Virus record (IMG/VR): IMGVR_UViG_3300030110_004707
Location: 1 to 42,493 of that record
Direction: 5' to 3' (one strand)
DNA: 42,493 nucleotides
From: a virus
The position numbers were made by a program, and so were the translations under genes. Shown here one piece after another: positions 21,846-42,493 of this stretch; positions within the stretch are counted from its first letter, which is position 1; each line of letters starts with the position of its first letter. The notes under the pieces were generated by a model that was not told the DNA's origin, made no database searches, and saw nothing but the letters and a program-made list of their open reading frames with translations.

Positions 21846-22103
21846 ATGGCTTTAGCTAAATCGCAAAAATCTTTAAAGAACTGGACAAAACAAAAATGGA
21901 GAACCAAAAGTGGGAAACCTAGCACACAAGGTAAAAAAGCTACAGGCGAAAGGTACTTACCAGCTAAAGCAATTGCCTCATTATCTGATGCAGAGTATAG
22001 AGCGACTAGCAGAGCTAAGCGAAAAGGTAAGAAGCAAGGTAAGCAGTATGTGGCTCAACCGAAAAAAATAGCAAAGAAAACAAAAGCATATAGGAAATCT
22101 TAA
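21846..22103 (+). CDS. Small basic protein, DUF5872-like (85 aa)
   Basis: The sequence KSLKNWTKQKWRTKSGKPST followed by QGKKATGERYLPAKAIASLS and QPKKIAKKTKAYRKS matches the pattern of DUF5872 proteins, which I recall from phages and large eukaryotic viruses. It is almost entirely basic. Role unknown; DNA-binding virion protein is the best guess. Confidence 0.78.
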   Translation: MALAKSQKSLKNWTKQKWRTKSGKPSTQGKKATGERYLPAKAIASLSDAEYRATSRAKRKGKKQGKQYVAQPKKIAKKTKAYRKS

Positions 22104-22819
22104 TGACAACTTCAGGCACTTCTAGTTTTGATCTTAATTTAACAGAAATTGTTGAAGAGGCTTTTGAACGTGCAGGTTCTGAGCTACGTACCGGATACGA
22201 TTTAAAAACTGCAAGACGTTCTTTAAATTTATTATTTGCAGATTGGGCTAATAGAGGAATTAATTTATGGACTGTTGAACAAGGATCTATATCTTTGACA
22301 GCGGGTACAGGACAATACAATCTGCCTGTAGATACTGTTGATTTACTAGAACATGTCATTAGAACAAATGATGGTAGTGTTTCTAATCAATCGGATTTAA
22401 CAATTTCTAGGATAAGTGTTTCTACTTATGCAAGCATTCCTTCAAAATTAAATCAAGGCAGGCCAATTCAAGTTTATATTGACAGACAATCTGGTACTAC
22501 TAGTCCTACAGGAACACAGTCTCCAAATATAAATGTATGGCCTGTACCAGATCAAAGTAATTACTATACTTTTGTATATTGGAGAATGAGAAGAATACAA
22601 GACGCATCTACTGGGGCTGTAAGTTTTGATGTACCTTTTAGATTTTTACCATGTTTAACAGCAGGACTTGCGTATTACTTAGCGTTGAAAGTTCCTAATG
22701 GAATGGAGCGTTTGTCGATGTTAAAGGCCATGTATGATGAAACATGGGATCTTGCTGCAGGAGAAGATCGTGAAAAAGCATCAGATAGACTTGTTCCACG
22801 ACAAATGTTTATTACTTAA
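22103..22819 (+). CDS. Head-tail adaptor, P22 gp4-like
   Basis: A 238-residue protein starting MTTSGTSSFDLNLTEIVEEA, with the helical core AFERAGSELRTGYDLKTARR and LNLLFADWANRGINLWTVEQ, then a beta part ending FVYWRMRRIQDASTG. These are features of the P22 gp4-type adaptor family that attaches to the portal ring and closes the head. It lies with other neck genes. Overlaps the previous stop by one base. Confidence 0.8.
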   Translation: MTTSGTSSFDLNLTEIVEEAFERAGSELRTGYDLKTARRSLNLLFADWANRGINLWTVEQGSISLTAGTGQYNLPVDTVDLLEHVIRTNDGSVSNQSDLTISRISVSTYASIPSKLNQGRPIQVYIDRQSGTTSPTGTQSPNINVWPVPDQSNYYTFVYWRMRRIQDASTGAVSFDVPFRFLPCLTAGLAYYLALKVPNGMERLSMLKAMYDETWDLAAGEDREKASDRLVPRQMFIT

Positions 22820-23190: not shown

Positions 23191-23346
23191 ATGAAAAATG
23201 ATACTAATACTTATAAACAACCAGAGCAAGTTCCTGTGCCTAAAGTTGACGGGTATCCTAATAATGTACCGAATACGCAAACAGTTGTAACGCGAGGGTC
23301 TGGTGCTGCTACAAAAGGTAATAAGTCTTCAACTAGGCTTGCATAA
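23191..23346 (+). CDS. Small hypothetical protein (51 aa)
   Basis: The frame starts at ATG 23191 with TTAGGAG 6-7 bases upstream, and its TAA overlaps the next ATG. The protein starts MKNDTNTYKQPEQVPVPKVD and has TVVTRGSGAATKG near the end, a short motif that I have seen in other marine phage neck clusters. Function unknown. Confidence 0.7.
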   Translation: MKNDTNTYKQPEQVPVPKVDGYPNNVPNTQTVVTRGSGAATKGNKSSTRLA

Positions 23347-24026
23347 TGAATTACGCTACTCTTTATGAAACTATAAAAGGGTATTGTGAAAACGATTTCC
23401 CTGACACTTCTTTTACAGATAGTGCTGGTAATTCTATTTCTTTGACTAGCACTGAACAAGTTAATACATTTATAGAACAAACTGAGCAACGTGTGTTTAA
23501 CTCCGTTCAACTTTTAAATCTTAGAAAGAATGTATTAGGGTCTTTAACAGCTAGTAATCAATATTTAAAAACTCCTTCAGATTGGTTAGCTAATTTTTCT
23601 TTAGCTGTAATTGATCCTACTACAGGAGCTTATAGTTATCTTTTAAATAAAGATGTTAGTTTTATTCGAGAAGCATTTCCAACTCCAACAGATACAGCAA
23701 CTCCCACACATTACGCTTTGTTTGATGATGATACATATATAGTAGGCCCAACACCAGATCAAAACTATTCAACTGAGTTGCATTACTTTTATTATCCAGA
23801 GTCTATTGTGACTGCAGGAACATCATGGCTTGGAGATAATTTTGATTCGTTGTTATTATACGGGTCTTTATTAGAAGCTGCTGCTTTTACAAAAGCAGAA
23901 CCTGATGTTTTAACAAACTATACAGCACGTTATAATGAAAGTTTATCGTTACTTAAACAATTAAGTGAAGGTAAAAATCGTCAAGATATGTACAGAACAG
24001 AACAAGCGAGGTATGAAGTCAAATGA
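23346..24026 (+). CDS. Probable second neck/adaptor protein (SU10-adaptor type)
   Basis: A 226-residue protein starting MNYATLYETIKGYCENDFPD. The part EQVNTFIEQTEQRVFNSVQL with LRKNVLGSLTASNQYLKTPS and the segment HYFYYPESIVTAGTSWLGDN resemble adaptor proteins of the SU10/phiEco32 type that bind below the portal. The presence of the gp4-like gene 500 bases upstream fits a neck cluster. The assignment is by pattern memory. Confidence 0.65.
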   Translation: MNYATLYETIKGYCENDFPDTSFTDSAGNSISLTSTEQVNTFIEQTEQRVFNSVQLLNLRKNVLGSLTASNQYLKTPSDWLANFSLAVIDPTTGAYSYLLNKDVSFIREAFPTPTDTATPTHYALFDDDTYIVGPTPDQNYSTELHYFYYPESIVTAGTSWLGDNFDSLLLYGSLLEAAAFTKAEPDVLTNYTARYNESLSLLKQLSEGKNRQDMYRTEQARYEVK

Positions 24027-28262: not shown

Positions 28263-28717
28263 TGTTAAATTTAATTGGAAGTTTACTACCTATAGGTGAA
28301 AAATTAGTTGATAAATTAATTCCTGATCCAGAAGCCAAGCAAAAAGCTCTCAAAGAATTAAAACAAATGGAGCAATCAGGTGAACTAGCAAGGCTTTCTG
28401 CCGACCATGCAAATACTGCAAGTGCGCGAGAGCGTGAAATGAAAATCGCTAATTCAGAATTTGCCCCAATGGTAAATAAAATCATCGTACCGTGCCTAGC
28501 CATTTTAATCGTTTTTCTAACATTTGGCATGATGTCAGCAATCTTGTTTATGGACATTGAGTCTGGTAAAAATTACGAAATATCCCTATATATTTTAGGG
28601 TTATTATCAGGAGCCTTAATGAGTTGCATAAACTACTACTTCGGCTCCAGTACTGGCTCCAAGGAGAAAAGTAAAGAACTTCAAGATATGTTTAGTAAGA
28701 AAGAACCAAAACTATGA
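28262..28717 (+). CDS. Holin, GTA-type 3TM family
   Basis: A 151-residue protein with a helical N-terminus (acidic/basic, 1-65), hydrophobic segments at about 74-97 and 107-127, and the tail YYFGSSTGSKEKSKEL, a hallmark of the 'holin of 3TMs' family known from gene transfer agents and phages. It would permeabilise the inner membrane so that the endolysin can reach the cell wall. It overlaps the endolysin gene by 4 bases. Confidence 0.85.
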   Translation: MLNLIGSLLPIGEKLVDKLIPDPEAKQKALKELKQMEQSGELARLSADHANTASAREREMKIANSEFAPMVNKIIVPCLAILIVFLTFGMMSAILFMDIESGKNYEISLYILGLLSGALMSCINYYFGSSTGSKEKSKELQDMFSKKEPKL

Positions 28718-29106
28718 GCGTAGATTGGGAAAACTCTAAATACTTTAAAGCTACTGAATTTACTTGTAGTCATACAGGTACAGAGAAAATGGATCAAAAC
28801 TTTATAGACAAATTAAATAACTTGCGAGAGGCATATGGCAAGCCCATGACAATTAGTTCTGGATACAGAGACGCAACTCATCCAGTAGAAGCAGCTAAAA
28901 AAGATCCTACTGCTGGAGCGCACGTTTCAGGTAAAGCCTCAGATATATTAATTGACAGGACGGATGCGTTTAAACTTCTTTCATTAGCATTTGTTGTTGG
29001 ATTTACAGGTATAGGAGTAAATCAGAAAGGCGGGGCGAGGTTTTTGCACCTAGACACTATTGAAAGTTCTCCTGCAAGACCTCGCCCAACCATCTGGTCT
29101 TATTAA
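28714..29106 (+). CDS. Endolysin, peptidase M15 family
   Basis: A 130-residue peptidase. It has ISSGYRDATHP (47-57), then GAHVSGKASD with H70 and D77, and LHLDT with H112: the SxGYRxxxH/HxxxxxxD/HxD zinc-binding set of M15 D,D- or L,D-carboxypeptidases that cut peptidoglycan cross-link peptides. No signal peptide, so it needs the holin next to it for export. Overlaps the next frame only if an upstream start were used there. Confidence 0.9.
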   Translation: MSVDWENSKYFKATEFTCSHTGTEKMDQNFIDKLNNLREAYGKPMTISSGYRDATHPVEAAKKDPTAGAHVSGKASDILIDRTDAFKLLSLAFVVGFTGIGVNQKGGARFLHLDTIESSPARPRPTIWSY

Positions 29107-31281: not shown

Positions 31282-32382
31282 ATGAATAACATGCAACCGT
31301 TAGCTAAAGCAATACAATCTCAAGGACGTGGCAATGACTCTATGCTCGTTCATATGACTCCTTCTGAAGTAGGAGGATTGCAAACTTTAGCTCAAAAATA
31401 TAATAGAAGTCTAAGTATTAATCCTTCAACAGGGCTTCCTGAAGCTGGGTTTCTTGAAGACATTCTTCCTACGTTAGCTGGTGCTGCTTTAGTTATAGGA
31501 TCACAAGGAGCAATAAACCCTGTGATGGCAGGAGCTATTGTTGGAGGAGGAACTACAGTGGCTACTGGAGACATAAGTAAAGGTTTAACCGCAGGGCTTG
31601 GAGCATATGGTGGCGCAGGACTTGGGCAAGGATTAACTGCAGCAGGTGCTGCTGCTACACCCGGCGGAATAACACCGGGCACGGAGGCCGTAAAAGCAAA
31701 AACATTAGCAGATGGTACGATACAAGCTGCTGAAGCTGCAGTGCCTCCTAGTATTAATCCTGATGTTATAAGCCCTACCATTCAAACAACAGGGCAAAAT
31801 TTTAGCCTAGCTGGAGAAGGTCTTACTAATTTAGGAACTCAAGGAGGGCGTGAGGCTTTTGTTCAAGGGTTATCACAAAACAAAGCAGGAGAACTTGTTG
31901 GTACAGGAGGAGATTTATTTAAGTATGGACTAACTTCTGTTACTCCTATGCTTGAACAAGAGCCTTATGAATATAAGAAAAAAACAGGACAAATAAAAAA
32001 TTACGATTATGATCCCGGCACTCAGAACGTAGCCTACAGAACAGGCGTAAGAGATGAAGACACCGATGAGCTTCGTTATTTTAGACCACGGTTTTTTGCA
32101 ATGGGTGGATTAGCTAATCTAAATAATAGAAGTGAGTATTTACGAGGAATGGGAGATGGTATGAGTGATACTATCCCTGCAAATATAAATAATGTACAAG
32201 AGGCTGCTCTGTCAGACGGAGAGTTTGTTATACCTGCAGATGTTGTTTCACATTTAGGGAATGGCTCTAGTAATGCAGGAGCAAAACGACTGTACGCTAT
32301 GATGGATAATATTCGTAAAGAAAGAACAGGTAAAGAAAAACAAGCACCTGCTGTTAATGTAAATAAAATTATGCCAACTTAA
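31282..32382 (+). CDS. Internal virion (ejection-type) protein with Gly/Ala-rich membrane-like region (366 aa)
   Basis: Starts MNNMQPLAKAIQSQGRGNDS, followed by MLVHMTPSEVGGLQTLAQKY and INPSTGLPEAGFLEDILPTL, a pattern I know from predicted ejection proteins of marine phages. Residues about 65-130 are hydrophobic and Gly/Ala-rich, then a C-terminal block GDGMSDTIPANI, SDGEFVIPADVVSHLGNGSS and AGAKRLYAMMDNIRKERTGK, also conserved. A motif MGGLANLNN lies before it. A role in DNA ejection is likely. Confidence 0.72.
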   Translation: MNNMQPLAKAIQSQGRGNDSMLVHMTPSEVGGLQTLAQKYNRSLSINPSTGLPEAGFLEDILPTLAGAALVIGSQGAINPVMAGAIVGGGTTVATGDISKGLTAGLGAYGGAGLGQGLTAAGAAATPGGITPGTEAVKAKTLADGTIQAAEAAVPPSINPDVISPTIQTTGQNFSLAGEGLTNLGTQGGREAFVQGLSQNKAGELVGTGGDLFKYGLTSVTPMLEQEPYEYKKKTGQIKNYDYDPGTQNVAYRTGVRDEDTDELRYFRPRFFAMGGLANLNNRSEYLRGMGDGMSDTIPANINNVQEAALSDGEFVIPADVVSHLGNGSSNAGAKRLYAMMDNIRKERTGKEKQAPAVNVNKIMPT

Positions 32383-32795
32383 TGGATTCTGTTGAGGTTG
32401 TTCCACTTTCTTTAATTCATACTGTGTGGCCTGATGTAGAAAAGTTTTTAAAAGATGGATTATCGTTTTGTGAAGGTGATTATACTGTTGAGCAAGTTAA
32501 GGTATATATTACAAAAGGAGAATGGATGTTGATAGTTGCTGTTAGTGAAGATAAATTAATAAAAGGAGCAGCAGCAGTAAATATTTATAATCTACCTAAT
32601 GATAGGGTAGCGTTTGTAATTACTATGGGCGGTAAAGGAATAGTTAATAAAGAAGTTTTTAATAAATTAAAAACTTTAGTAAAAAGTTTTGGAGCAACAA
32701 AAGTTCAAGGAGCCGTAAGAGAATCTATGGCAAGGTTTTGGACACAAATAGCTAATGCTAAAGAGCGTTATAAAATTGTTGAGGTAAAAATATGA
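32382..32795 (+). CDS. GNAT-like internal virion protein, T7 gp13-type (137 aa)
   Basis: A small alpha/beta protein with strands WMLIVAVSEDKLIKGAAAVN, RVAFVITMGGKG and a helix VFNKLKTLVKSFGATKVQGA. Size and context (before large internal proteins) resemble T7 internal virion protein A (gp13), which has an acetyltransferase-like fold. The acetyl-CoA site is not clear, so it may be structural only. The start overlaps the previous stop. Confidence 0.6.
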   Translation: MDSVEVVPLSLIHTVWPDVEKFLKDGLSFCEGDYTVEQVKVYITKGEWMLIVAVSEDKLIKGAAAVNIYNLPNDRVAFVITMGGKGIVNKEVFNKLKTLVKSFGATKVQGAVRESMARFWTQIANAKERYKIVEVKI

Positions 32796-34057
32796 GAAAC
32801 GCATGGGATGAAATGTTACCCGAAAGGGCATTTGTAAAAAGAGCAGGGCCGGGCAATCGGCCTATGACTTTAGAAGGTGGGTCTGGTGGAGGGCAGCCTA
32901 GTCAAATAAGTCAAGTTACTATTCCAGAGTACGCTGAACCGTACATGACCGATATATTAGGAAAAGCAGCAGCACTTTCTGATGTAGAAAAATCTCCTTA
33001 TCAAGTATATGGAGGAGAACGAATTGCTGGGCCAACTGTTGCACAACAAGAAGCTAGACTAGCCGCACAAAATATACAAATGCCCGGAGGCTTTGATGCA
33101 GGAGCAAGTCTTGCTCAAACTGCTGGACTACAAGCCTTAACAGGTTCTCAATATGATCCAACTTCAACTGCAGTTAGTGCGCCACAACTTACACAATATG
33201 GTATGCAAGGCGCACAGACCACTTATAATCCTGCTCTTGTAGCACCGGAATTTAGTAGTGAAGAAGTAATTAAATATGGTTCTCCGTTTATGCAAGAAGT
33301 TGTAGAACGTCAAAAGTTAGCTGCAATAGATGATGCTAAACGAACTCAACTTTCTACAAACCTAGCTTCTGCTAGACAAGGAACTTATGGAGGAGCAAGG
33401 CAGGCTCTACTTCAAGGAGAACGAGAAACTGCATTGGCTGGTCAGCTTGGAGACATTCAAGCACAAGGACTACAATCTGCTTATGAATCAGCACAAGCTC
33501 AGTTTGAAAGAGATCGTGCTGCTAAATTAGGAGTACAGGCTCTTGGTGCTGACATAGGATTAAAAACATCACTTGCAAATTTAGATGCTGAGCAACAAGC
33601 TAGAGTACAAAATCTTGCAGCATCTTTACAAACGCAAGGGTTAGGAGCAAATCAAGCTCTTCAAGCAGCTTTAGCTAATCAAGCTAATCAACAGTTTGGG
33701 TCTGAGTTAGGATTAAAAGGAACACAAGCAGCTACACAATCAGCCGGAGTGTTAGGAGATTTAGCTGGCCGTCAAGCTCAAGCACAATTAGCAAACATAC
33801 AGTTTCAAAATCAAATGGCCGCGCAACGTCAAGCAGAGCAACAAGCTATGTTAGATATGGCGTATGGAGATTTTCAAGCACAACAAGCTGATCCTTATAC
33901 ACGTTTAGGATTTATGTCTGATCTTCTTAGAGGATCATCTAATCTTGCACAAACTGGAGGACGAGCTATCTATCAACAACCTGTTGCACCCGCTAGTCAA
34001 GTAGCCAGTTTAGGTTTGTCTGGACTAGCACTTAGTAAATTACTATCAGGAAGTTAA
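32792..34057 (+). CDS. Gln/Ala-rich internal virion protein (421 aa)
   Basis: The N-terminus (MRNAWDEMLPERAFVKRAGP) precedes a helical body extremely rich in Gln and Ala (for example AGQLGDIQAQGLQSAYESAQ), a composition typical of ejection proteins and of tail-associated coiled coils. Next to GNAT-like and giant internal protein genes it is probably part of the ejection complex. No motif of an enzyme is visible. Confidence 0.7.
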   Translation: MRNAWDEMLPERAFVKRAGPGNRPMTLEGGSGGGQPSQISQVTIPEYAEPYMTDILGKAAALSDVEKSPYQVYGGERIAGPTVAQQEARLAAQNIQMPGGFDAGASLAQTAGLQALTGSQYDPTSTAVSAPQLTQYGMQGAQTTYNPALVAPEFSSEEVIKYGSPFMQEVVERQKLAAIDDAKRTQLSTNLASARQGTYGGARQALLQGERETALAGQLGDIQAQGLQSAYESAQAQFERDRAAKLGVQALGADIGLKTSLANLDAEQQARVQNLAASLQTQGLGANQALQAALANQANQQFGSELGLKGTQAATQSAGVLGDLAGRQAQAQLANIQFQNQMAAQRQAEQQAMLDMAYGDFQAQQADPYTRLGFMSDLLRGSSNLAQTGGRAIYQQPVAPASQVASLGLSGLALSKLLSGS

Positions 34058-34059
34058 TT

Positions 34060-35829
34060 ATGGCACTCACAATATCTGATCCTAACATCGCAAAGCTCGA
34101 TTCGTTAATTAAACAAGCTGTACCAAAAGGGTCAAAAGGAATAAAGTTTTTAGAAAATATGTTACGAGAGATAACTTTTAAACGTCCACAGGATGTAGGA
34201 AGTAAAAAGTATTTATTGTTAGCTGGAGAGTTACAAGCTAGAAAAAACACGGCAGAGAAAATGAAAGGTGCTGGCCCTAAGCCTCCTAGTGTAATTCAGT
34301 CTTTAACTGCGCCTGCTCCTCAAGATGGGTTAGGTTTAGATATGTCACAGCCTGCTGTCAGAAACTTAGCAGCACAAAATCAAATGGCTACTATTGGGGG
34401 CAAACCTCCTGCGGGTAAAGGTGGAGGTATAGTTGCATTTCAAAGTACAGGCTTTGTAAATTTACAAGAAATTCTTAAAGGTATTGATGATGAAGATGAA
34501 AGAGCCAGAGTAGAAACTTTGCTAAGAAGTGGACGAAATCCTTTTCCAGAAAAAATAAAAGGAGATAAATTAATTCCCGGACAACGATATTATAAACAAG
34601 TAGATAATCCTGATTATGCTTTAACACAAAGATTTTTAGATGAAAATCCTACAGGAATGGCGCCGGGCATAGGCTTTAATCGTGCTAAAGATACTGAGAT
34701 AAAACAAAATTACTTAGCCAATCTTGAAAAGGCTATGGCAGGGGTAGATCCTTCACAAACTCCTGTAGCTCCTCCACAAATAAACCCAGTTACAGAAACA
34801 AAAACAACAACTTCCGACAGAGATGCTGCAAGATTTAGTTTAGCTAACGCTTTTAAAAGAGGGCAAGAACAAGCTAATTTACAAAAAGTTGAAACCTCTG
34901 ATATAGGAGGTTTGCAACCATCTGTCGAAAGAAGAGGCGATGGAATTACTGTAGAAAATCTCTCTGCTTCTACTGATTTACCACCGAGTATGCCTATAAG
35001 CGATCCTTTAGATGCTGCAACATTACTTAAACAAAATAGAACTATGTTTGCGTCTGATTTTCCTGTTCAAGGAAAGGGGCTTATGGCTCAATTATCTCCT
35101 CAAGATCAAGCCATTCTTAAAGAACCAGATGTAAATGTTCTATACAAAAAACAAATAGCAAAAGATAAAGCACTGTACGGAGATGAAACTAAAAACCGTG
35201 TAGACCTTATTAATGAATCCATGAAAGGTTTAAAAGGCTTGAAGAAAAAATTAGGATATGAAGCTCTATTAGTGTTTGCAGGTGAGATGGGTTCTACACC
35301 GGGCAGTATTCTTGATGCCATATCCAAAGGAACTAAAGCAGCTACTCCAACTATTATAAAAGGATTAGAAAAAATTAAAGACAATACTGAGAAACTTAAA
35401 TTTAAAGAAGCTGAACTTAAAGATTTACTTGTTAAAAGAGATAATACTATAACTAAAAGCGCACGAGATTCAATAGATAAGAAGGTAGAGAAAGCACAAG
35501 CAAACCGAACTAATACAATAAATACTAATAGGAAAGATTTAACTAAGCTATCTGCTACCATAACAAACGCTCAACTAACTACTCAGCAACGAAAAATAAC
35601 AAATGAATTAAAAGCTAACGAGTTAAACATAACAAGAGCAAAATATAAAAATGATATAGAGTTCAAAGCCGCTAAAGCACAAGCTGAAATGATAAACGAT
35701 GTTTTTAACAGTATAATTCAAGCTAAAGCTAAAGAACTAGGGGCGGCCTTAGACGAAGATGATTTTGAAACATATATGAAGCAAGCAAAAAGACTAGTAT
35801 TTAATCGCACGGTTACGCCTCCTCAATAA
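34060..35829 (+). CDS. Internal virion protein candidate (589 aa)
   Basis: A 589-residue mostly helical and charged protein starting MALTISDPNIAKLDSLIKQA. A Pro/Gly-rich part with GKGGGIVAFQSTG (about 124-136) is followed by disordered stretches and a C-terminal coiled coil (about 430-570). Position between the Gln/Ala-rich gene and the giant gene suggests an ejection or internal core role. No enzymatic motif seen. Confidence 0.7.
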   Translation: MALTISDPNIAKLDSLIKQAVPKGSKGIKFLENMLREITFKRPQDVGSKKYLLLAGELQARKNTAEKMKGAGPKPPSVIQSLTAPAPQDGLGLDMSQPAVRNLAAQNQMATIGGKPPAGKGGGIVAFQSTGFVNLQEILKGIDDEDERARVETLLRSGRNPFPEKIKGDKLIPGQRYYKQVDNPDYALTQRFLDENPTGMAPGIGFNRAKDTEIKQNYLANLEKAMAGVDPSQTPVAPPQINPVTETKTTTSDRDAARFSLANAFKRGQEQANLQKVETSDIGGLQPSVERRGDGITVENLSASTDLPPSMPISDPLDAATLLKQNRTMFASDFPVQGKGLMAQLSPQDQAILKEPDVNVLYKKQIAKDKALYGDETKNRVDLINESMKGLKGLKKKLGYEALLVFAGEMGSTPGSILDAISKGTKAATPTIIKGLEKIKDNTEKLKFKEAELKDLLVKRDNTITKSARDSIDKKVEKAQANRTNTINTNRKDLTKLSATITNAQLTTQQRKITNELKANELNITRAKYKNDIEFKAAKAQAEMINDVFNSIIQAKAKELGAALDEDDFETYMKQAKRLVFNRTVTPPQ

Positions 35830-35843
35830 AGGGATAAATATTT

Positions 35844-38800
35844 ATGCCCAGTTATCGAGTTAACATACCAGACAAAGGATCATATAGAGTTGATTCTCTT
35901 ACTCCATTAACAGAAGATGAAGTTATTGCTAGAGTATTAAATTCTTTTGAACCTGAACCAGAGCCTGAACCAGAACCAGAATTACCTGATCCTACTTTTG
36001 GAGGCGCTCTTAAAGAAACAGTTAAGGGTGTTGGTAGAGGATTTGTTGGATCTCTTGAAACAGCAGGAAAAGGTTTAGCTGCATTATTGCCAGAGTCTGC
36101 AGAGACTCCTGTAGTAAGTGGACTTGAGGCTGTTAGTGAAGCCTTGTCTCCTGAGCTTGCACCAGAATACAGAGATGCTGAAGGACTATATGGATTTCTT
36201 CCAAAGGTTGGAGAAGGTATTGGTAGCTTTACATCTTTCTTAGTGCCGGGTGGAGCCGCAGTCGGAGCAGCAAGATTAGCAGGAGCAGGCACAAGAGCCA
36301 CAGGACAACTAGCTACAGGCGCTGCTACGACTTTTGGTGGAGCATTAGGTGCTGGTGAAGCCCGTGAAAGAGCGCAAGAAGCAGGTGCAACAGAAGGAGA
36401 AGTAGCTGCTGCTACAGGACTTGGTATTGTTCCCGGTTTAATAGATGCTGTTGTTCCTTCTTTTAGAGTGTTAAAACGTATAACAGGTAAAACTGATAGC
36501 GAGATAGCTGGTGAACTACGCACAAAACTTTCTCAACGATTATTAGATCCTGCGGGAGTAGGTGTTTTTGAAGCAGCTACAGAAGTAACACAAGGCATAA
36601 TTCAAAATGCTATTGCACAAAAGGTTTACGATCCTGACCAACCTCTTATTGTTGGAGATCAAATAATTGACGAAGCAGGAGTTGGCTTTACAGTTGGTGC
36701 TTTAGCTGAAGCTATAACTACTTCTGCATTAGGCGGTAGGAAAACAAGGTTCGATCAAAAAACTGTGGCTGATGAAGAAGCACGACAAGCACAACTTGCT
36801 CAAGAAGAAGCTGCAGATGAAGCTGTTAAAAAAGAAATAGAAACAGATCTTCTTGGAGGATTGCCAAGAGATCCCTTTATTCGAGATGAAGAACAAGAGT
36901 TTGATCCTGTAACTGGAAAACGTTTAAAAAGTGATTTAGAAAAAGCAATAGAAATAGATACTGCAGAACAAGAAGCAGAGTTTACAAGGGTGTATCAAAG
37001 TTTGTCAGAAGATATTACTAATACACAAATACAAATAAATGAAGAAGCTACCAAAACTGATACAGACGTATCTCGGATCAGTGCATTAACTAATCAACTT
37101 GAAAGATTAGAAGCTAACAAAAATAAAGTTGTTGAAGAAGCAAAAAAGATTGCGCCTGATTTAAAGTTAACTCCACGTAAGACAATAAAAACTAGGGATC
37201 GTTCTGTAGTTGAGCAAGAAGAAATTCGTATTAAAAATGCTATGATAAATGCCAGTAATAAAGGCGAGTTTACTAAACTTCCAGATTTAAACAAACAGTT
37301 AGAGAAAGTGCAGCAAGAAACAGATCAAGGGGATTTGTTTGGAATAGAGAATAAAAAAAGAGTTGCGGAAGTAAACAAAATATATAGCCAAGATATAGGG
37401 ACTGCTCTAAAAGCAATTACAGCATCTGCTCGACAAAGACCGCAAGAAGGTATTGATAAACGAGAAGCTAGAGAAAAAGCAAGACAAGATGCTTTGCTTA
37501 AAGATGAGAACATAGAAAAACTTACACAATATATTGATAAGTTAGAAACAACAGGAGTATTTCCTAGAGCAGATTTTGAAACTAGAAAAAAATTAGAAGC
37601 TCAATTGTATGAGGGTATTTTAACTCCTGTATCAGGAAAAGCTCTTGGTATAAAAGTTGATAAAGAAAGTCGTGCTTATGAGTATATTCCTCAAATTAAC
37701 GAACGGTTAAAAGAATTAAATAAAAAACGCATAGGAGATGTGTTAAATGTTGTTTCTCCAAAAGTTACATTGTTTAATGAAAAAGGCCAACTAACGCGAA
37801 AAGGATTACAACTAGCTCAAGATGAAATGAAGTTTAATGTTTTAAACAAAGTTAAAACAGCAGCTATAAGTGATCTAAATAAAGAACCTACAGGTAGATA
37901 TTCTGAATTTGCAGACGTAGCTTATCAAAGAAATTTTGAAAACGCGTTAGCAGCAGACGCTCAAGAAGTTATTGATAAATACGAAGTTGATGAGACTGGT
38001 GTTGCTGCTCAGAGATTTAAAGCTATAGCTGGGGAAGCTGTTGAAAGTGCAGCAACAAGACAAAGAGATCTTGAATTAATACAAAAAAGAAATGAACTTG
38101 AAGATCGTTTAGAAAAAGAAGATTTAAACGTAGATCAAAAAAATAATATTACGGCTCAAGTAAGACAAATAACTAAACAATTAAAAGGTAGAGATGTTCC
38201 TTTTAAAGATACAGAAAAAGTTGATGCTACAACGCCTGCATTTACAAACTTTAAAGACGCAGCTTTTAAGTTAGATCGTGGAAATTATTTAGGTGTTACT
38301 GACACACTTACTTTAAAAGAAAGAGATCGTAACGCAAAAGCTAAGAAAGATATAGAAAGATTAACAGATGATTCAAAGTATTTTGCAGATCAAATAAAAA
38401 AATCTGCAGCAAATCGTGAGCAACAAAGATTTTTAGAACAGAAAAAAATTGACGTAGATGCAGAAATAAAAAAATTAAAAGCTGGAATAAGTGAAAGAGA
38501 TCCATCAAAAGCAAAGAGTTTAAAAGCTACGATTATTAAAGATGCTAATGAAGCAACATTAACTTATTTAGAAAATGCTGTTAAAGAAGTAAACGCTTAT
38601 AGAAATGCTACAAAACAGCAGCCTCTTACTGAGTTAGAAGAAAATCAACTACGCATAAAATTAAAAGTTTCTTTTGATAATTTACTTAATAGAATTACTG
38701 ATGTGCCTACAGGAGTAATGCCTACAGATAAAAAAGTCTACAGTCTTTTTAAAGAAATAGAAAATCTACGTCAAGATAATTTAAAAACAATAGAAGCTAG

Positions 38801-41800
38801 TAAAGGTATTAAGCCTGAGCCAGAGCTAGAAGTAAAGCTTCCACCTAAAGATGTTGCCCCAGTTAGAGAACGAAAAAAAGAAGATACTTTACGAGATAAT
38901 CTTAATAACTTAAAAACAGAATTAAAAGATGTTAAAGAAGATATAAAAAACATTACAACAAGAGCTAACTCTGTTAGTGCAAAAGTAAACATTAAAGTAA
39001 AAAAACTAACAGACGAAAAATCTGCGATAGAAGAAAAATTAAAAACTGCAAAAACACAAAGTGATAAAACCAGATTAACTAAGAGATTAAACAACTTAAA
39101 TAAACAAATAGAAACAACTCAAAAAGAAGTTTTAGTTCCTATAGATATAGAAACAGTTAAAACTAACATTAATAATTTAAAAGAGCGTTTAAAAATTCTT
39201 GAAGAAGCAAAAAAAGATTCTGCTATAGATTCTAAAAGATTACCAGACATAAGAAAAAATATAAAAGAGTTTAAAACTAACATTAAGTCTGAACAAACAA
39301 AACTTGAAAATTTAGAAAATAAACTTGAAGAAATTAAAGATCTTCCATCTGCAGATATTAGTCGAACAAAACCATTAAAAGAAAAACAAGAAAAATTAAT
39401 TGATGAAATAAAAACATTAGAAAAGAAACTTGAACCTTTTAATAATCGGTTAGAAAAAGGATTAGAAAACCTTAGAAAAATAAATGAAGCTCAAAATAAT
39501 TTAACAGCTTTAAATAGAGAAAATGTTGTAGAGCTTTCAGAGTCTTTTAACTCTTTAAAAAATGACCGTGCTGCTCCAAGAAATCCTGATGAAAAGATTG
39601 CTAAAAAAAATGACGCTATATTAAATAGAAGAGAAAAAATATTAATTAATCAATTAAAAAAATTACAAGCAAAAGGAGTTTTAAAAACATCAAAAGAAGT
39701 TTCAGGCGTAAGATTGCTTGAAGAGTTTGAAAACAAAAATACTATATTTGATTTTACTAATAAAGCAGCTATTGAAAAAGATGCAGCGCTTGCTAAAAAA
39801 CAACTTAATGATTTAAAAACAGACATAAAAACTATAAAAACTGCTATTACACAAAAGCCAAAGGCTGAGTACAAAAAAGTACTAACTATTTTATTAAAAG
39901 AAATTCCAACAAAAATAAAAGCTGCTGAACAAACTCAAAAAACTCTTGAGTTTAGAAACAAACAAACTGAAACTCTACGAGACTTTGTACAAAAACAACT
40001 TAATAAAACACAAAGTGAACTTGCAAAACTGCCAAAGGTTGATATAGATGCAAAAGCTAAACAGCAAACAGGTTTAGATTTACCGGGAGTTAGAGTAGAA
40101 ACTAGAGTTATAGACCCAGCGCAACCAATCGCAACCCCTTTAGAAGAAAAGATACAAAAACAAAAAATAACATCCATTCCTAGATATGAAAATATAATTG
40201 CTAAAAAAGAAGAAGAGTTAAGAGAAGGAGTTAAAAAAGGGAAAATAGCAGACACAACCGTTAAGATGTCTGAAAAAGATAAAGTAAGTTTAAAAGCCTC
40301 GATTAGTTCTTTTAAAGGTAAGTTACTAAAGGCACGAGCTATGGTAACTAATTACGAAATTGCTGTAAAAGACGTTGCAAAAAGTAGAAACAACGCACAA
40401 AGTTTTGGTAGTTTTGATGAAAGCATTTTAGAAAATCGTAAAGCTATTCTTACAGAGCTTGAGGATTCTTTAAAAGTTGCGGAATTATCAAAAAAAGCAA
40501 AAGAAAATATTAAAAAAGATATAGAAACAGAAAAACAAATTATTGATAATTTTGAAAAAATTCTAAAAGAAACTGGGGATACTAAAAAAATTCGTAGACG
40601 TACAATAACAGAGCTTTCAACAAGCCCAACGGACTTGTACAGTCAAGCTAAAGTTCATGCTACTAATGTAAGAACACTTACTGAAGACATACCTGTTGAA
40701 GATAAACAAACTTTATATAAAGAAGCTACACAAGAAGTTGTTGAGTTAGAAGACATTGTTGCAGATTCTAAAGCTGAAGTAATTAAATTAGAGAAAGCTG
40801 CTGATACAACTCCTCGTCAGTTATCAGATGCTCAAGCAAAATTAAAAAATGCACAAGATAATTACTTGGCTGCAAAAACACATCAAAATAATATAGGCTT
40901 TAACTTCGATAAATATGTAGAAGGACAGAAAAAAGCTAAAGAAAAAGAAGATGAATTATTAAAAGGCTATGATCCAAATTACAACAATGAGTATTACGAA
41001 GCTGATGATAACATTCCTTCTAAAATAAAAGATGCTGCTGCAGGAGATATTTTATATAGAATTGGGGCAGTCAACTTAGGAACAGTAAAATTTACTGAAG
41101 CCGCACCTCTTTTAAAAGACATGCAAGCTAAAACTAAAAAGATGGGCATTAAACTTATTACTTATGAAGATGTAACTCAACTACCAAACGAGATACTTGA
41201 CAACTTAGCATTTCAAAACATGAGCGCCCATGCTAATAGAGTAAAAGGTGGAGTGATGCCTGACGGCACAGTGTTTGTAATTACTAGTCATCACGAAAGT
41301 ATAGAAGACTTAGAGATTACACTAGCCCATGAGTTAATAGGACACTACACGTTTGAAGGAATGCTTGGTAAAGATGGCATGGATAAGTTACTTAAACGTG
41401 TTGAAAAATCTTACCCTGCTACAAAAGATAATCCTGCTGTATTTGAATTAGCTAAAGAACTTGGGGTAGAGAAAGAAGCACAACAAGCATTCTTAGAAAG
41501 CCTTAGTTCTACACAACGTGGCCTAGAAGAAGGTACATTATCTAGTAAAGAAGTTGTACGACTAGCACAACTGAAAGCTCTTCGTGAAGTCATTGCTTAT
41601 ACTGCACAAAAACTAGATAAACCTGTTACAAAAACATTTGCTAGTAAAGTTAAAAAGTTTTTACAAGATATGGTCTACATGTTTAGAAATACTTTAGTAA
41701 AAAACTTTGGTTTTATTTCACTACCAAAAATATCTACAGATGAATTATTTTTCTTAATGCGTCAAGCTGAGAAAAACTTTAAACAAGGTAAAGCATACAC

Positions 41801-42493
41801 CTACCGCAATGAAGACGGCACGATTTCCTTATCTACCGCAGCGACTGTGCCAGAATTTACTACGCCAAACATTAATGTTATGGAAGTAATAGATAAGATA
41901 ATTGAAAAGCCTACATCACAATATGAAAAATTAACTGCAAACTGGGAGGGTCTTAATTTTAGAACGCAGTTTATTGATAGAGCTGATATCTTAGAAAGAA
42001 TTAAAATAACCGGACAAACATTAAAAGATAAATTTGGCAATCCATTATTAGATGCAATAGAAGCTACTAATTTAACTTATTTTATAAGAAAGTATGACCA
42101 ACGCCAAAGTCTAGTTGCTGAAGCTGCTACCACTGGGGTAGCACAAGTTATAAAAGACCCTAAAACTGGGGAAGTTAGCATTGGTAGAGACATAAAAAAA
42201 GAAACATCTTCTATAAAAAAAGTTGCAGAAGCTCTTGGTAGAGCAAAGTTTAAAGATGCTAATGCAACGAAAGCATTTACTGGGTACATGTTAATAGAAA
42301 GAGCTGAGTCTATTCCTGATGGAGTAAGAAAGCTAGGCTTAGATAAAATTTCTAAAGCACAAAGAGATGCTGTACAACAGGCTGGCCGTAACAACAAAGC
42401 ATTTCAAGAAGCTAGAAAATATTATAACGAATACAACAATGACTTAATTAATTTGCTTGCAGATACAGGGTATATTGATGCAAATAAAGCAAA
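35844..42493 (+). CDS. Giant internal virion / polyvalent-type protein with zincin site (partial, over 2216 aa)
   Basis: Starts at ATG 35844 (MPSYRVNIPDKGSYRVDSLT) with AAAGGGAT upstream and is open to the window edge. Parts seen: an N-terminal Glu-Pro repeat (about 36-46); Gly/Ala-rich hydrophobic segments (about 53-210), which may insert into membranes; a very long Lys/Glu coiled-coil region (about 300-1680); a zincin-like site HELIGHYTFEGMLG (H1829, E1830, H1834); and near the edge a segment (about 2130-2216) like LPD38 of large polyvalent proteins. Such proteins are packed in the head and ejected with the DNA. It is the last of the internal protein cluster, in the position of T7 gp15/gp16. 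The C-terminus is outside the window, and no in-frame stop occurs. Confidence 0.85.
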   Translation, partial: MPSYRVNIPDKGSYRVDSLTPLTEDEVIARVLNSFEPEPEPEPEPELPDPTFGGALKETVKGVGRGFVGSLETAGKGLAALLPESAETPVVSGLEAVSEALSPELAPEYRDAEGLYGFLPKVGEGIGSFTSFLVPGGAAVGAARLAGAGTRATGQLATGAATTFGGALGAGEARERAQEAGATEGEVAAATGLGIVPGLIDAVVPSFRVLKRITGKTDSEIAGELRTKLSQRLLDPAGVGVFEAATEVTQGIIQNAIAQKVYDPDQPLIVGDQIIDEAGVGFTVGALAEAITTSALGGRKTRFDQKTVADEEARQAQLAQEEAADEAVKKEIETDLLGGLPRDPFIRDEEQEFDPVTGKRLKSDLEKAIEIDTAEQEAEFTRVYQSLSEDITNTQIQINEEATKTDTDVSRISALTNQLERLEANKNKVVEEAKKIAPDLKLTPRKTIKTRDRSVVEQEEIRIKNAMINASNKGEFTKLPDLNKQLEKVQQETDQGDLFGIENKKRVAEVNKIYSQDIGTALKAITASARQRPQEGIDKREAREKARQDALLKDENIEKLTQYIDKLETTGVFPRADFETRKKLEAQLYEGILTPVSGKALGIKVDKESRAYEYIPQINERLKELNKKRIGDVLNVVSPKVTLFNEKGQLTRKGLQLAQDEMKFNVLNKVKTAAISDLNKEPTGRYSEFADVAYQRNFENALAADAQEVIDKYEVDETGVAAQRFKAIAGEAVESAATRQRDLELIQKRNELEDRLEKEDLNVDQKNNITAQVRQITKQLKGRDVPFKDTEKVDATTPAFTNFKDAAFKLDRGNYLGVTDTLTLKERDRNAKAKKDIERLTDDSKYFADQIKKSAANREQQRFLEQKKIDVDAEIKKLKAGISERDPSKAKSLKATIIKDANEATLTYLENAVKEVNAYRNATKQQPLTELEENQLRIKLKVSFDNLLNRITDVPTGVMPTDKKVYSLFKEIENLRQDNLKTIEASKGIKPEPELEVKLPPKDVAPVRERKKEDTLRDNLNNLKTELKDVKEDIKNITTRANSVSAKVNIKVKKLTDEKSAIEEKLKTAKTQSDKTRLTKRLNNLNKQIETTQKEVLVPIDIETVKTNINNLKERLKILEEAKKDSAIDSKRLPDIRKNIKEFKTNIKSEQTKLENLENKLEEIKDLPSADISRTKPLKEKQEKLIDEIKTLEKKLEPFNNRLEKGLENLRKINEAQNNLTALNRENVVELSESFNSLKNDRAAPRNPDEKIAKKNDAILNRREKILINQLKKLQAKGVLKTSKEVSGVRLLEEFENKNTIFDFTNKAAIEKDAALAKKQLNDLKTDIKTIKTAITQKPKAEYKKVLTILLKEIPTKIKAAEQTQKTLEFRNKQTETLRDFVQKQLNKTQSELAKLPKVDIDAKAKQQTGLDLPGVRVETRVIDPAQPIATPLEEKIQKQKITSIPRYENIIAKKEEELREGVKKGKIADTTVKMSEKDKVSLKASISSFKGKLLKARAMVTNYEIAVKDVAKSRNNAQSFGSFDESILENRKAILTELEDSLKVAELSKKAKENIKKDIETEKQIIDNFEKILKETGDTKKIRRRTITELSTSPTDLYSQAKVHATNVRTLTEDIPVEDKQTLYKEATQEVVELEDIVADSKAEVIKLEKAADTTPRQLSDAQAKLKNAQDNYLAAKTHQNNIGFNFDKYVEGQKKAKEKEDELLKGYDPNYNNEYYEADDNIPSKIKDAAAGDILYRIGAVNLGTVKFTEAAPLLKDMQAKTKKMGIKLITYEDVTQLPNEILDNLAFQNMSAHANRVKGGVMPDGTVFVITSHHESIEDLEITLAHELIGHYTFEGMLGKDGMDKLLKRVEKSYPATKDNPAVFELAKELGVEKEAQQAFLESLSSTQRGLEEGTLSSKEVVRLAQLKALREVIAYTAQKLDKPVTKTFASKVKKFLQDMVYMFRNTLVKNFGFISLPKISTDELFFLMRQAEKNFKQGKAYTYRNEDGTISLSTAATVPEFTTPNINVMEVIDKIIEKPTSQYEKLTANWEGLNFRTQFIDRADILERIKITGQTLKDKFGNPLLDAIEATNLTYFIRKYDQRQSLVAEAATTGVAQVIKDPKTGEVSIGRDIKKETSSIKKVAEALGRAKFKDANATKAFTGYMLIERAESIPDGVRKLGLDKISKAQRDAVQQAGRNNKAFQEARKYYNEYNNDLINLLADTGYIDANKA

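Follow-up and report, generated by a model that had tools for sequence, protein, structure and literature searches.

A giant ejection-cluster protein with a zincin-like peptidase and an LPD38 module in an IMG/VR phage

Described giant phage proteins

Iyer et al. 2017 (PMC5512222) described phage-type polyvalent proteins together with LPD38 and HEXXXH peptidases; they set HEXXXH enzymes among the polyvalent proteins, proposed self-processing as the function of these peptidases and cited the processed DdrB found in the P1 head. Like those proteins, the giant protein analysed here has a C-terminal LPD38 domain and a HEXXXH zincin-like metallopeptidase (MPTase), is encoded by a phage beside virion genes and is predicted to be injected; it differs in having no second recognised catalytic domain, some 1,400 charged helical residues replacing the enzymatic cargo. 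It is a good new example of a class known since 2017, not a new kind.

The DarB-like proteins JC1 gp69 and Bcep22 gp75 of Burkholderia phages share a homologous C-terminal module with the giant and are likewise encoded by the last gene of the virion module. JC1 gp69 (4515 aa) also carries an SLT lysozyme, an Eco57I-type methylase, an SNF2 helicase and LPD3, none of which was found in the giant. Mass spectrometry of CsCl-purified virions recovered 51 unique peptides of gp69, which was second in score (PMC9144972). The giant of Achromobacter phage CF418P1 (2684 aa, annotated 'putative portal') has the same MPTase followed by the LPD38 module and, unlike ours, carries InPase and LPD3 in addition.

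N4 gp50, the virion RNA polymerase (vRNAP), resembles the giant in its membrane-like N-terminus, cargo, zincin (C1) and large helical C-terminus, and is preceded by a tunnel protein of ~640 aa, as the giant is by a 589-aa partner; the N4 order is a 150-aa protein, a 644-aa protein, then the 3500-aa polymerase, and N4 gp51 has been reported to be the periplasmic tunnel. In gp50 the motif is HEXXH rather than HEXXXH, its RNA polymerase is absent from the giant (no vRNAP match to a single-chain RNA polymerase domain in the window or the full-length protein), and profile comparison detected no relation between its C2 domain and the giant's C-terminal module. T7 gp16 is, like the giant, the largest and last protein of its ejection cluster, helical, and expected at the inner membrane; unlike the giant it has a lysozyme, and no sequence homology between the two was detected. 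The peptidase and C-terminal parts gave no match to the T7 gp16 family when compared with the PDB by sequence and by fold, and gp16 is not known to have a zincin or LPD38. By analogy, the giant may work like gp16 or N4 gp50.

Gene and conserved domains

The whole stretch of DNA analysed (the window) is an entire IMG/VR contig of 42,493 bases. On its plus strand, a frame at 35844..42491 runs for 2216 codons without a stop and is open at the window end; at this base composition the log10 probability of such a stop-free frame is about -71, so that chance cannot give such a length. The frame is a real gene and, because the window is the whole contig, is cut by a contig end. Searching viral contigs with the last 536 in-window residues recovered two, L002 and L003. 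L002 shows 9 mismatches to the window over 11,610 overlapping bases (the window's last 11,610) and by this comparison is the same phage, L003 being a sibling. The whole gene lies at L002:4961-13603 and encodes 2880 aa plus a stop, of which the window holds 2216 codons; the L003 copy has 2924 aa. The sequence-only reading, which had described a frame of at least 2216 codons cut by the window edge and proposed extending it rightward, was thus right about the frame, and the extension through L002 supplied the missing end. Whole-protein Pfam and PHROGs scans gave nothing, so slices of the protein were scanned.

The conserved N-terminal domain (residues 1-330; 35844..36833, plus strand) is Gly/Ala-rich and membrane-like, as first supposed. 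G and A make up 42% of residues 101-200, and the sole TM-like hydrophobic stretch of the domain covers residues 187-205 (36402..36458, plus strand; Kyte-Doolittle 1.68). A profile of 57 relatives, built with the window sequence left out, matched residues 1-329 at E=1e-21, and the domain also matched phrog_10691 (E=2e-5).

Residues 1735-2008 (41046..41867, plus strand) form a zincin-like metallopeptidase domain. The zinc-binding motif is HELIGH (residues 1829-1834; 41328..41345, plus strand), that is, the rarer HEXXXH spacing rather than HEXXH; H1829 and E1830 are kept in 47/47 relatives and H1834 in 45/47. The predicted third zinc ligand, E1915 (41586..41588, plus strand), is invariant in 47/47 although it was not a selection criterion, and is likewise invariant in alignment A5. 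The giant thus combines a HEXXXH motif with a downstream Glu, in the manner of polyvalent-protein MPTases. In an AF2 model, HELIGH lies within a single long helix, and a helix and three strands separate it from the helix that bears E1915, which is the order described for the zincin core by Iyer et al. 2017 (PMC5512222). The AF2 models of the peptidase and the C-terminal module are of moderate confidence (mean pLDDT 70 and 73), with pLDDT 85-93 across most of the peptidase domain.

Profile comparison by hhalign matched the peptidase to Achromobacter phage CF418P1 (99%, E=1e-18), to Vibrio phage 1.232.O (96%) and to the C1 zincin of the N4 virion RNA polymerase (87%, E=4e-6, both motifs aligned), while another stretch of the N4 polymerase, taken as a negative control, scored 0.7%. 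The giant's peptidase is remotely homologous to the N4 C1 zincin, a relationship that links polyvalent peptidases to a structurally solved domain. The zincin predicted from the letters was accordingly borne out by conservation, model and N4 homology, with HEXXXH in place of HEXXH. A HEXX(X)H motif occurs 150-380 residues ahead of the C-terminal module in 57/71 non-redundant loci, compared with 0.55 expected from shuffles. A few close relatives have no such proximal motif, so the peptidase is not universally required. The giants of two cultivated relatives that grow on laboratory E. coli, PTXU04 (PTXU04_00025) and Pondi, show HEI[IV]VHYG together with the LPD38 module. Foldseek searches of the PDB with the AF2 models of the peptidase and the C-terminal module gave no significant match; among the predicted proteins of a viral library the peptidase model hit large polyvalent ones, at E=9e-5 and 4e-4 with low TM-scores. 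The peptidase alignment profile found nothing significant among PDB sequences, 6 of its 8 weak matches being zincins.

The remaining ~870 residues are helical and end with LPD38. Pfam LPD38 matched residues 2584-2761 at E=1e-27, with 94-98 bits against a curated cut-off of 27. This domain lies outside the window, which holds only the start of the C-terminal part (residues 2009-2216, with the module beginning at 2142; 41868..42491, plus strand), and the in-window segment has no Pfam match. The sequence-only reading had placed an LPD38-like segment there; it named the right family, from a domain that it could not see, and the wrong location. About 55 phage isolate records, and at least 590 of 600 candidate IMG/VR stretches, contain relatives of the C-terminal module (2142-2880). 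Proteins bearing it are usually giants of 1,300-4,500 aa that come last in a podoviral ejection cluster, and LPD38 was found by Pfam in all 17 giants scanned. The 17 relatives in bacterial genomes are almost all from metagenome bins, and none gives a reliable host.

The charged variable region

Between the N-terminal domain and the peptidase lie 1,404 residues (331-1734; 36834..41045, plus strand) that are high in K, E, D and R, mostly helical and fast-evolving. The description of this region as a Lys/Glu coil of more than 1300 residues holds for its length and composition; as a coiled coil it is true in part, because significant heptad periodicity was present in just 14/40 windows and the region contains 43 prolines and 38 glycines. 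Comparison of the two siblings gave a dN/dS of 0.79 here, 0.40 in the N-terminus, 0.30 in the peptidase and 0.11 in the C-terminal part, constraint being strongest in the C-terminal module. BLAST found no relatives of residues 331-1734 apart from the sibling, and Pfam and PHROGs scans of slices gave no reliable sub-domain match. To judge from these searches, the middle of the chain in this clade is charged helical sequence only, with no recognised cargo domain; in cultured relatives the mid-chain cargo includes methylase, helicase, DdrB-ParB, InPase, GNAT or lysozyme domains.

That cargo bears on whether the giant is an injected effector of the DarB kind, which would shield the DNA from restriction and whose peptidase would attack a host defence protein. 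Methylases, SNF2/ResIII helicases or DdrB-ParB do occur in relatives of the C-terminal module, a number of which bear the annotation DarB-like. Pfam found no methylase, helicase, ParB, ART or lysozyme domain in the window or the full-length protein, and hence not the methylase plus helicase of DarB; nor did it find such enzymatic domains in 16 close relatives, which gave only LPD38, one LPD23 and one weak vRNAP_dom_2. The would-be cargo region is, moreover, helical, weakly constrained and unconserved. We therefore consider this reading unlikely and, given the lack of such domain matches, an anti-defence role of the giant unproven. The earlier proposal of a new type of ejectosome or anti-defence effector is not supported: the class, LPD38 and the HEXXXH peptidase have been known since 2017, and the layout of peptidase and helical C-terminus is that of the N4 vRNAP.

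The variable region also holds a recurring short motif. In the giant this is QGDLF (residues 495-499; 37326..37340, plus strand), a putative sliding-clamp-binding-like motif carried by the peptide QETDQGDLFGIE. Among 54 non-redundant proteins Q..LF was observed 54 times against 11.9 expected, ranking 3 of 4,466 X..YZ patterns, a count in which homologous sites are not independent and beside which other patterns are enriched via helix periodicity or N-terminal homology. Enrichment of Q..LD, on examination, was ascribed to both of these. D, E or S occupies the third position in 38/58 occurrences of Q..[LM]F, and Q-x-[DES]-L-F is close to the bacterial sliding-clamp-binding consensus. Q..LF was not enriched in the C-terminal part (4 against 8.5 expected); enrichment was weaker in 24 further loci (15 against 5.0, rank 45 of 4,483). 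It is conceivable, if doubtful, that in this clade the fast-evolving region is a delivery arm docking the ejected giant on the host replication sliding clamp via Q-x-[DES]-L-F; if so, docking would bring the replisome into contact with the injected peptidase or with the genome as it enters. A literature search found nothing on clamp-binding motifs in injected phage proteins. The motif may be a novelty, and we offer it as a lead rather than a result.

Ejection cluster, proposed course and structural alternatives

The window also encodes a terminase, a portal, a major head protein and a phrog_3287-family virion structural protein. Immediately upstream of the giant gene, all on the plus strand, lie genes for a conserved cluster protein of 366 aa (p366; 31282..32382), a GNAT-like protein of 137 aa (32382..32795), a putative DNA ejection protein of 421 aa (p421; 32792..34057; phrog_4287, E=1e-8) and the 589-aa partner (p589; 34060..35829). 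The last occupies the place of a periplasmic-tunnel protein like T7 gp15 or N4 gp51, an assignment made by position, the only profile match being to phrog_1015, weak and coil-based (E=0.009). The order p366, GNAT-like, p421, ~590 aa, giant is kept across dozens of relatives. Of 50 loci that extend far enough, 46 have a p421 homologue ahead of the giant, nearly always with space for one gene between; further upstream come GNAT in 14/14 and p366 in 28/28. Homologues of the GNAT-like protein occur in the same order in 16 loci, and there are homologues of p366 in 30. Pelagibacter phage Lederberg, a pelagiphage, and phage ct8d5349 show this arrangement too; in them the GNAT-like protein's place is taken by a relative annotated acetyltransferase, and other neighbours are annotated internal virion protein. 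As in the T7 order gp14-gp15-gp16, a DNA ejection protein and a protein of ~600 aa precede the largest protein, which closes the cluster; of the gp15/gp16 position first assigned to the giant, conserved gene order supports that of the gp16-like protein.

Taken with LPD38 well above its cut-off and with the MPTase, this placement points to an ejection protein of the phage-type polyvalent class that is the largest member of its podoviral cluster and is probably cut by its own zinc peptidase; we give this reading a probability of about 0.72. Very probably, virions carry the giant in their heads and inject it together with their DNA; its metal-dependent peptidase probably cuts the giant itself. 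The evidence for packing is homology to a virion protein: JC1 gp69 ends in the giant's C-terminal module (LPD38 E=2e-33; hhalign 98.4%, E=5e-15, over nearly the whole module). The original call of a phage polyvalent protein is upheld by LPD38, the conserved cluster order and the presence of this module in JC1 virions, a result that also speaks, by homology, against the main objection named at the outset, absence from virions.

From the established gene, architecture, catalytic residues, homology and synteny we infer the protein's ejection, topology and self-cleavage, which would run as follows. Packed inside the head, the giant would at infection be threaded unfolded through the tail together with its 421-aa and 589-aa partners. 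Its N-terminal domain would contact the inner membrane, as proposed for the N4 vRNAP, and the charged helical region would then act as a spacer or scaffold, extended and under little constraint. The zinc peptidase with its HEXXXH motif would free or mature segments of the chain, most likely by cutting the giant itself, and the conserved C-terminal LPD38 module would be the component that stays invariant because packaging or entry depends on it. The family, complete and populated by hundreds of contigs, appears to hold the LPD38 module and the peptidase constant while the middle varies freely, so that a single protein allows tests both of self-cleavage by polyvalent proteins once they have entered and of the role of LPD38.

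A purely structural, gp16-like conduit is quite improbable. Here the helical region would line or brace a trans-envelope tunnel, and the peptidase fold would be a cell-wall or structural remnant instead of an enzyme that processes its own chain. The position after p421 and p589 and the mostly helical chain fit, T7 gp16 being likewise helical and last in its cluster, but the invariance of H1829, E1830 and E1915 in 47/47 relatives argues for a working metal site, and neither sequence nor fold searches matched it to solved ejection proteins. A role in the tail of a long-tailed phage, as the tape measure or another protein that is coiled in look only, is suggested by the giant's length, coil composition, place after tail genes and sub-significant tape-measure matches, and was rejected as very improbable given LPD38 and the zincin, a phrog_3287 virion profile in a window whose scanned genes match neither tail-tube nor tape-measure profiles, and the presence of the module in the virion of JC1, a short-tailed C1 podovirus. 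Downstream of the polyvalent giant's gene lie converging genes for a 952-aa DUF927 protein, an SNF2 helicase and a PD-(D/E)XK nuclease.

Gene block in a bacterial genome bin

A contig of 83.8 kb (L099, JAGYJT010000012.1), binned with a bacterial genome as part of a Chitinophagales MAG, appears to share the gene block of the window phage. Its giant is 2465 aa long, with a C-module (the LPD38-containing C-terminal part) 50% identical. In L002, the near-identical contig on which the window giant is completed, a 952-aa DUF927 protein gene (L002:13714-16572, minus strand) converges on the giant gene; L099 has a comparably long ORF (956 aa) at this position, oriented likewise. The Chitinophagales bin could be a host hint or reflect a binning error.

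Motifs and names of the giants

Within the giant's variable region, otherwise without conservation, the sliding-clamp-binding-like motif Q-x-[DES]-L-F occurs 3-4.5 fold above expectation in the window and relatives L018-L156. The window copy, QGDLF, is encoded at 37326-37340; across the set the motif recurs around residues 500-650 and 900-1170. LPD38 giants in phage isolates and genomes (L012, L004, L009) carry misleading annotations, including 'putative portal', 'N-6 adenine-specific DNA methylase' and 'type I restriction enzyme methylase'.

Other genes of the window

The small endolysin (28714-29106, phrog_894) also matched the N-terminal end of phrog_10089, a DarB-like giant profile (E=2e-4). 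Domains of lysis enzymes thus appear to move into the giants. Two small virion genes (22103-22819, phrog_12985; 23346-24026, phrog_2941/10775) lie close together and may represent the 'dual tubular tail A' arrangement, as reportedly found in Sulfitobacter phage GT1. At the left end, the minus-strand gene at 279-2764 encodes a protein that combines a zincin-like motif, HECWH, with a likely VWA-type C-terminus; an AAA ATPase (phrog_1297) lies beside it. PHROGs labels the HECWH protein 'HNH endonuclease', which does not fit these sequence features.
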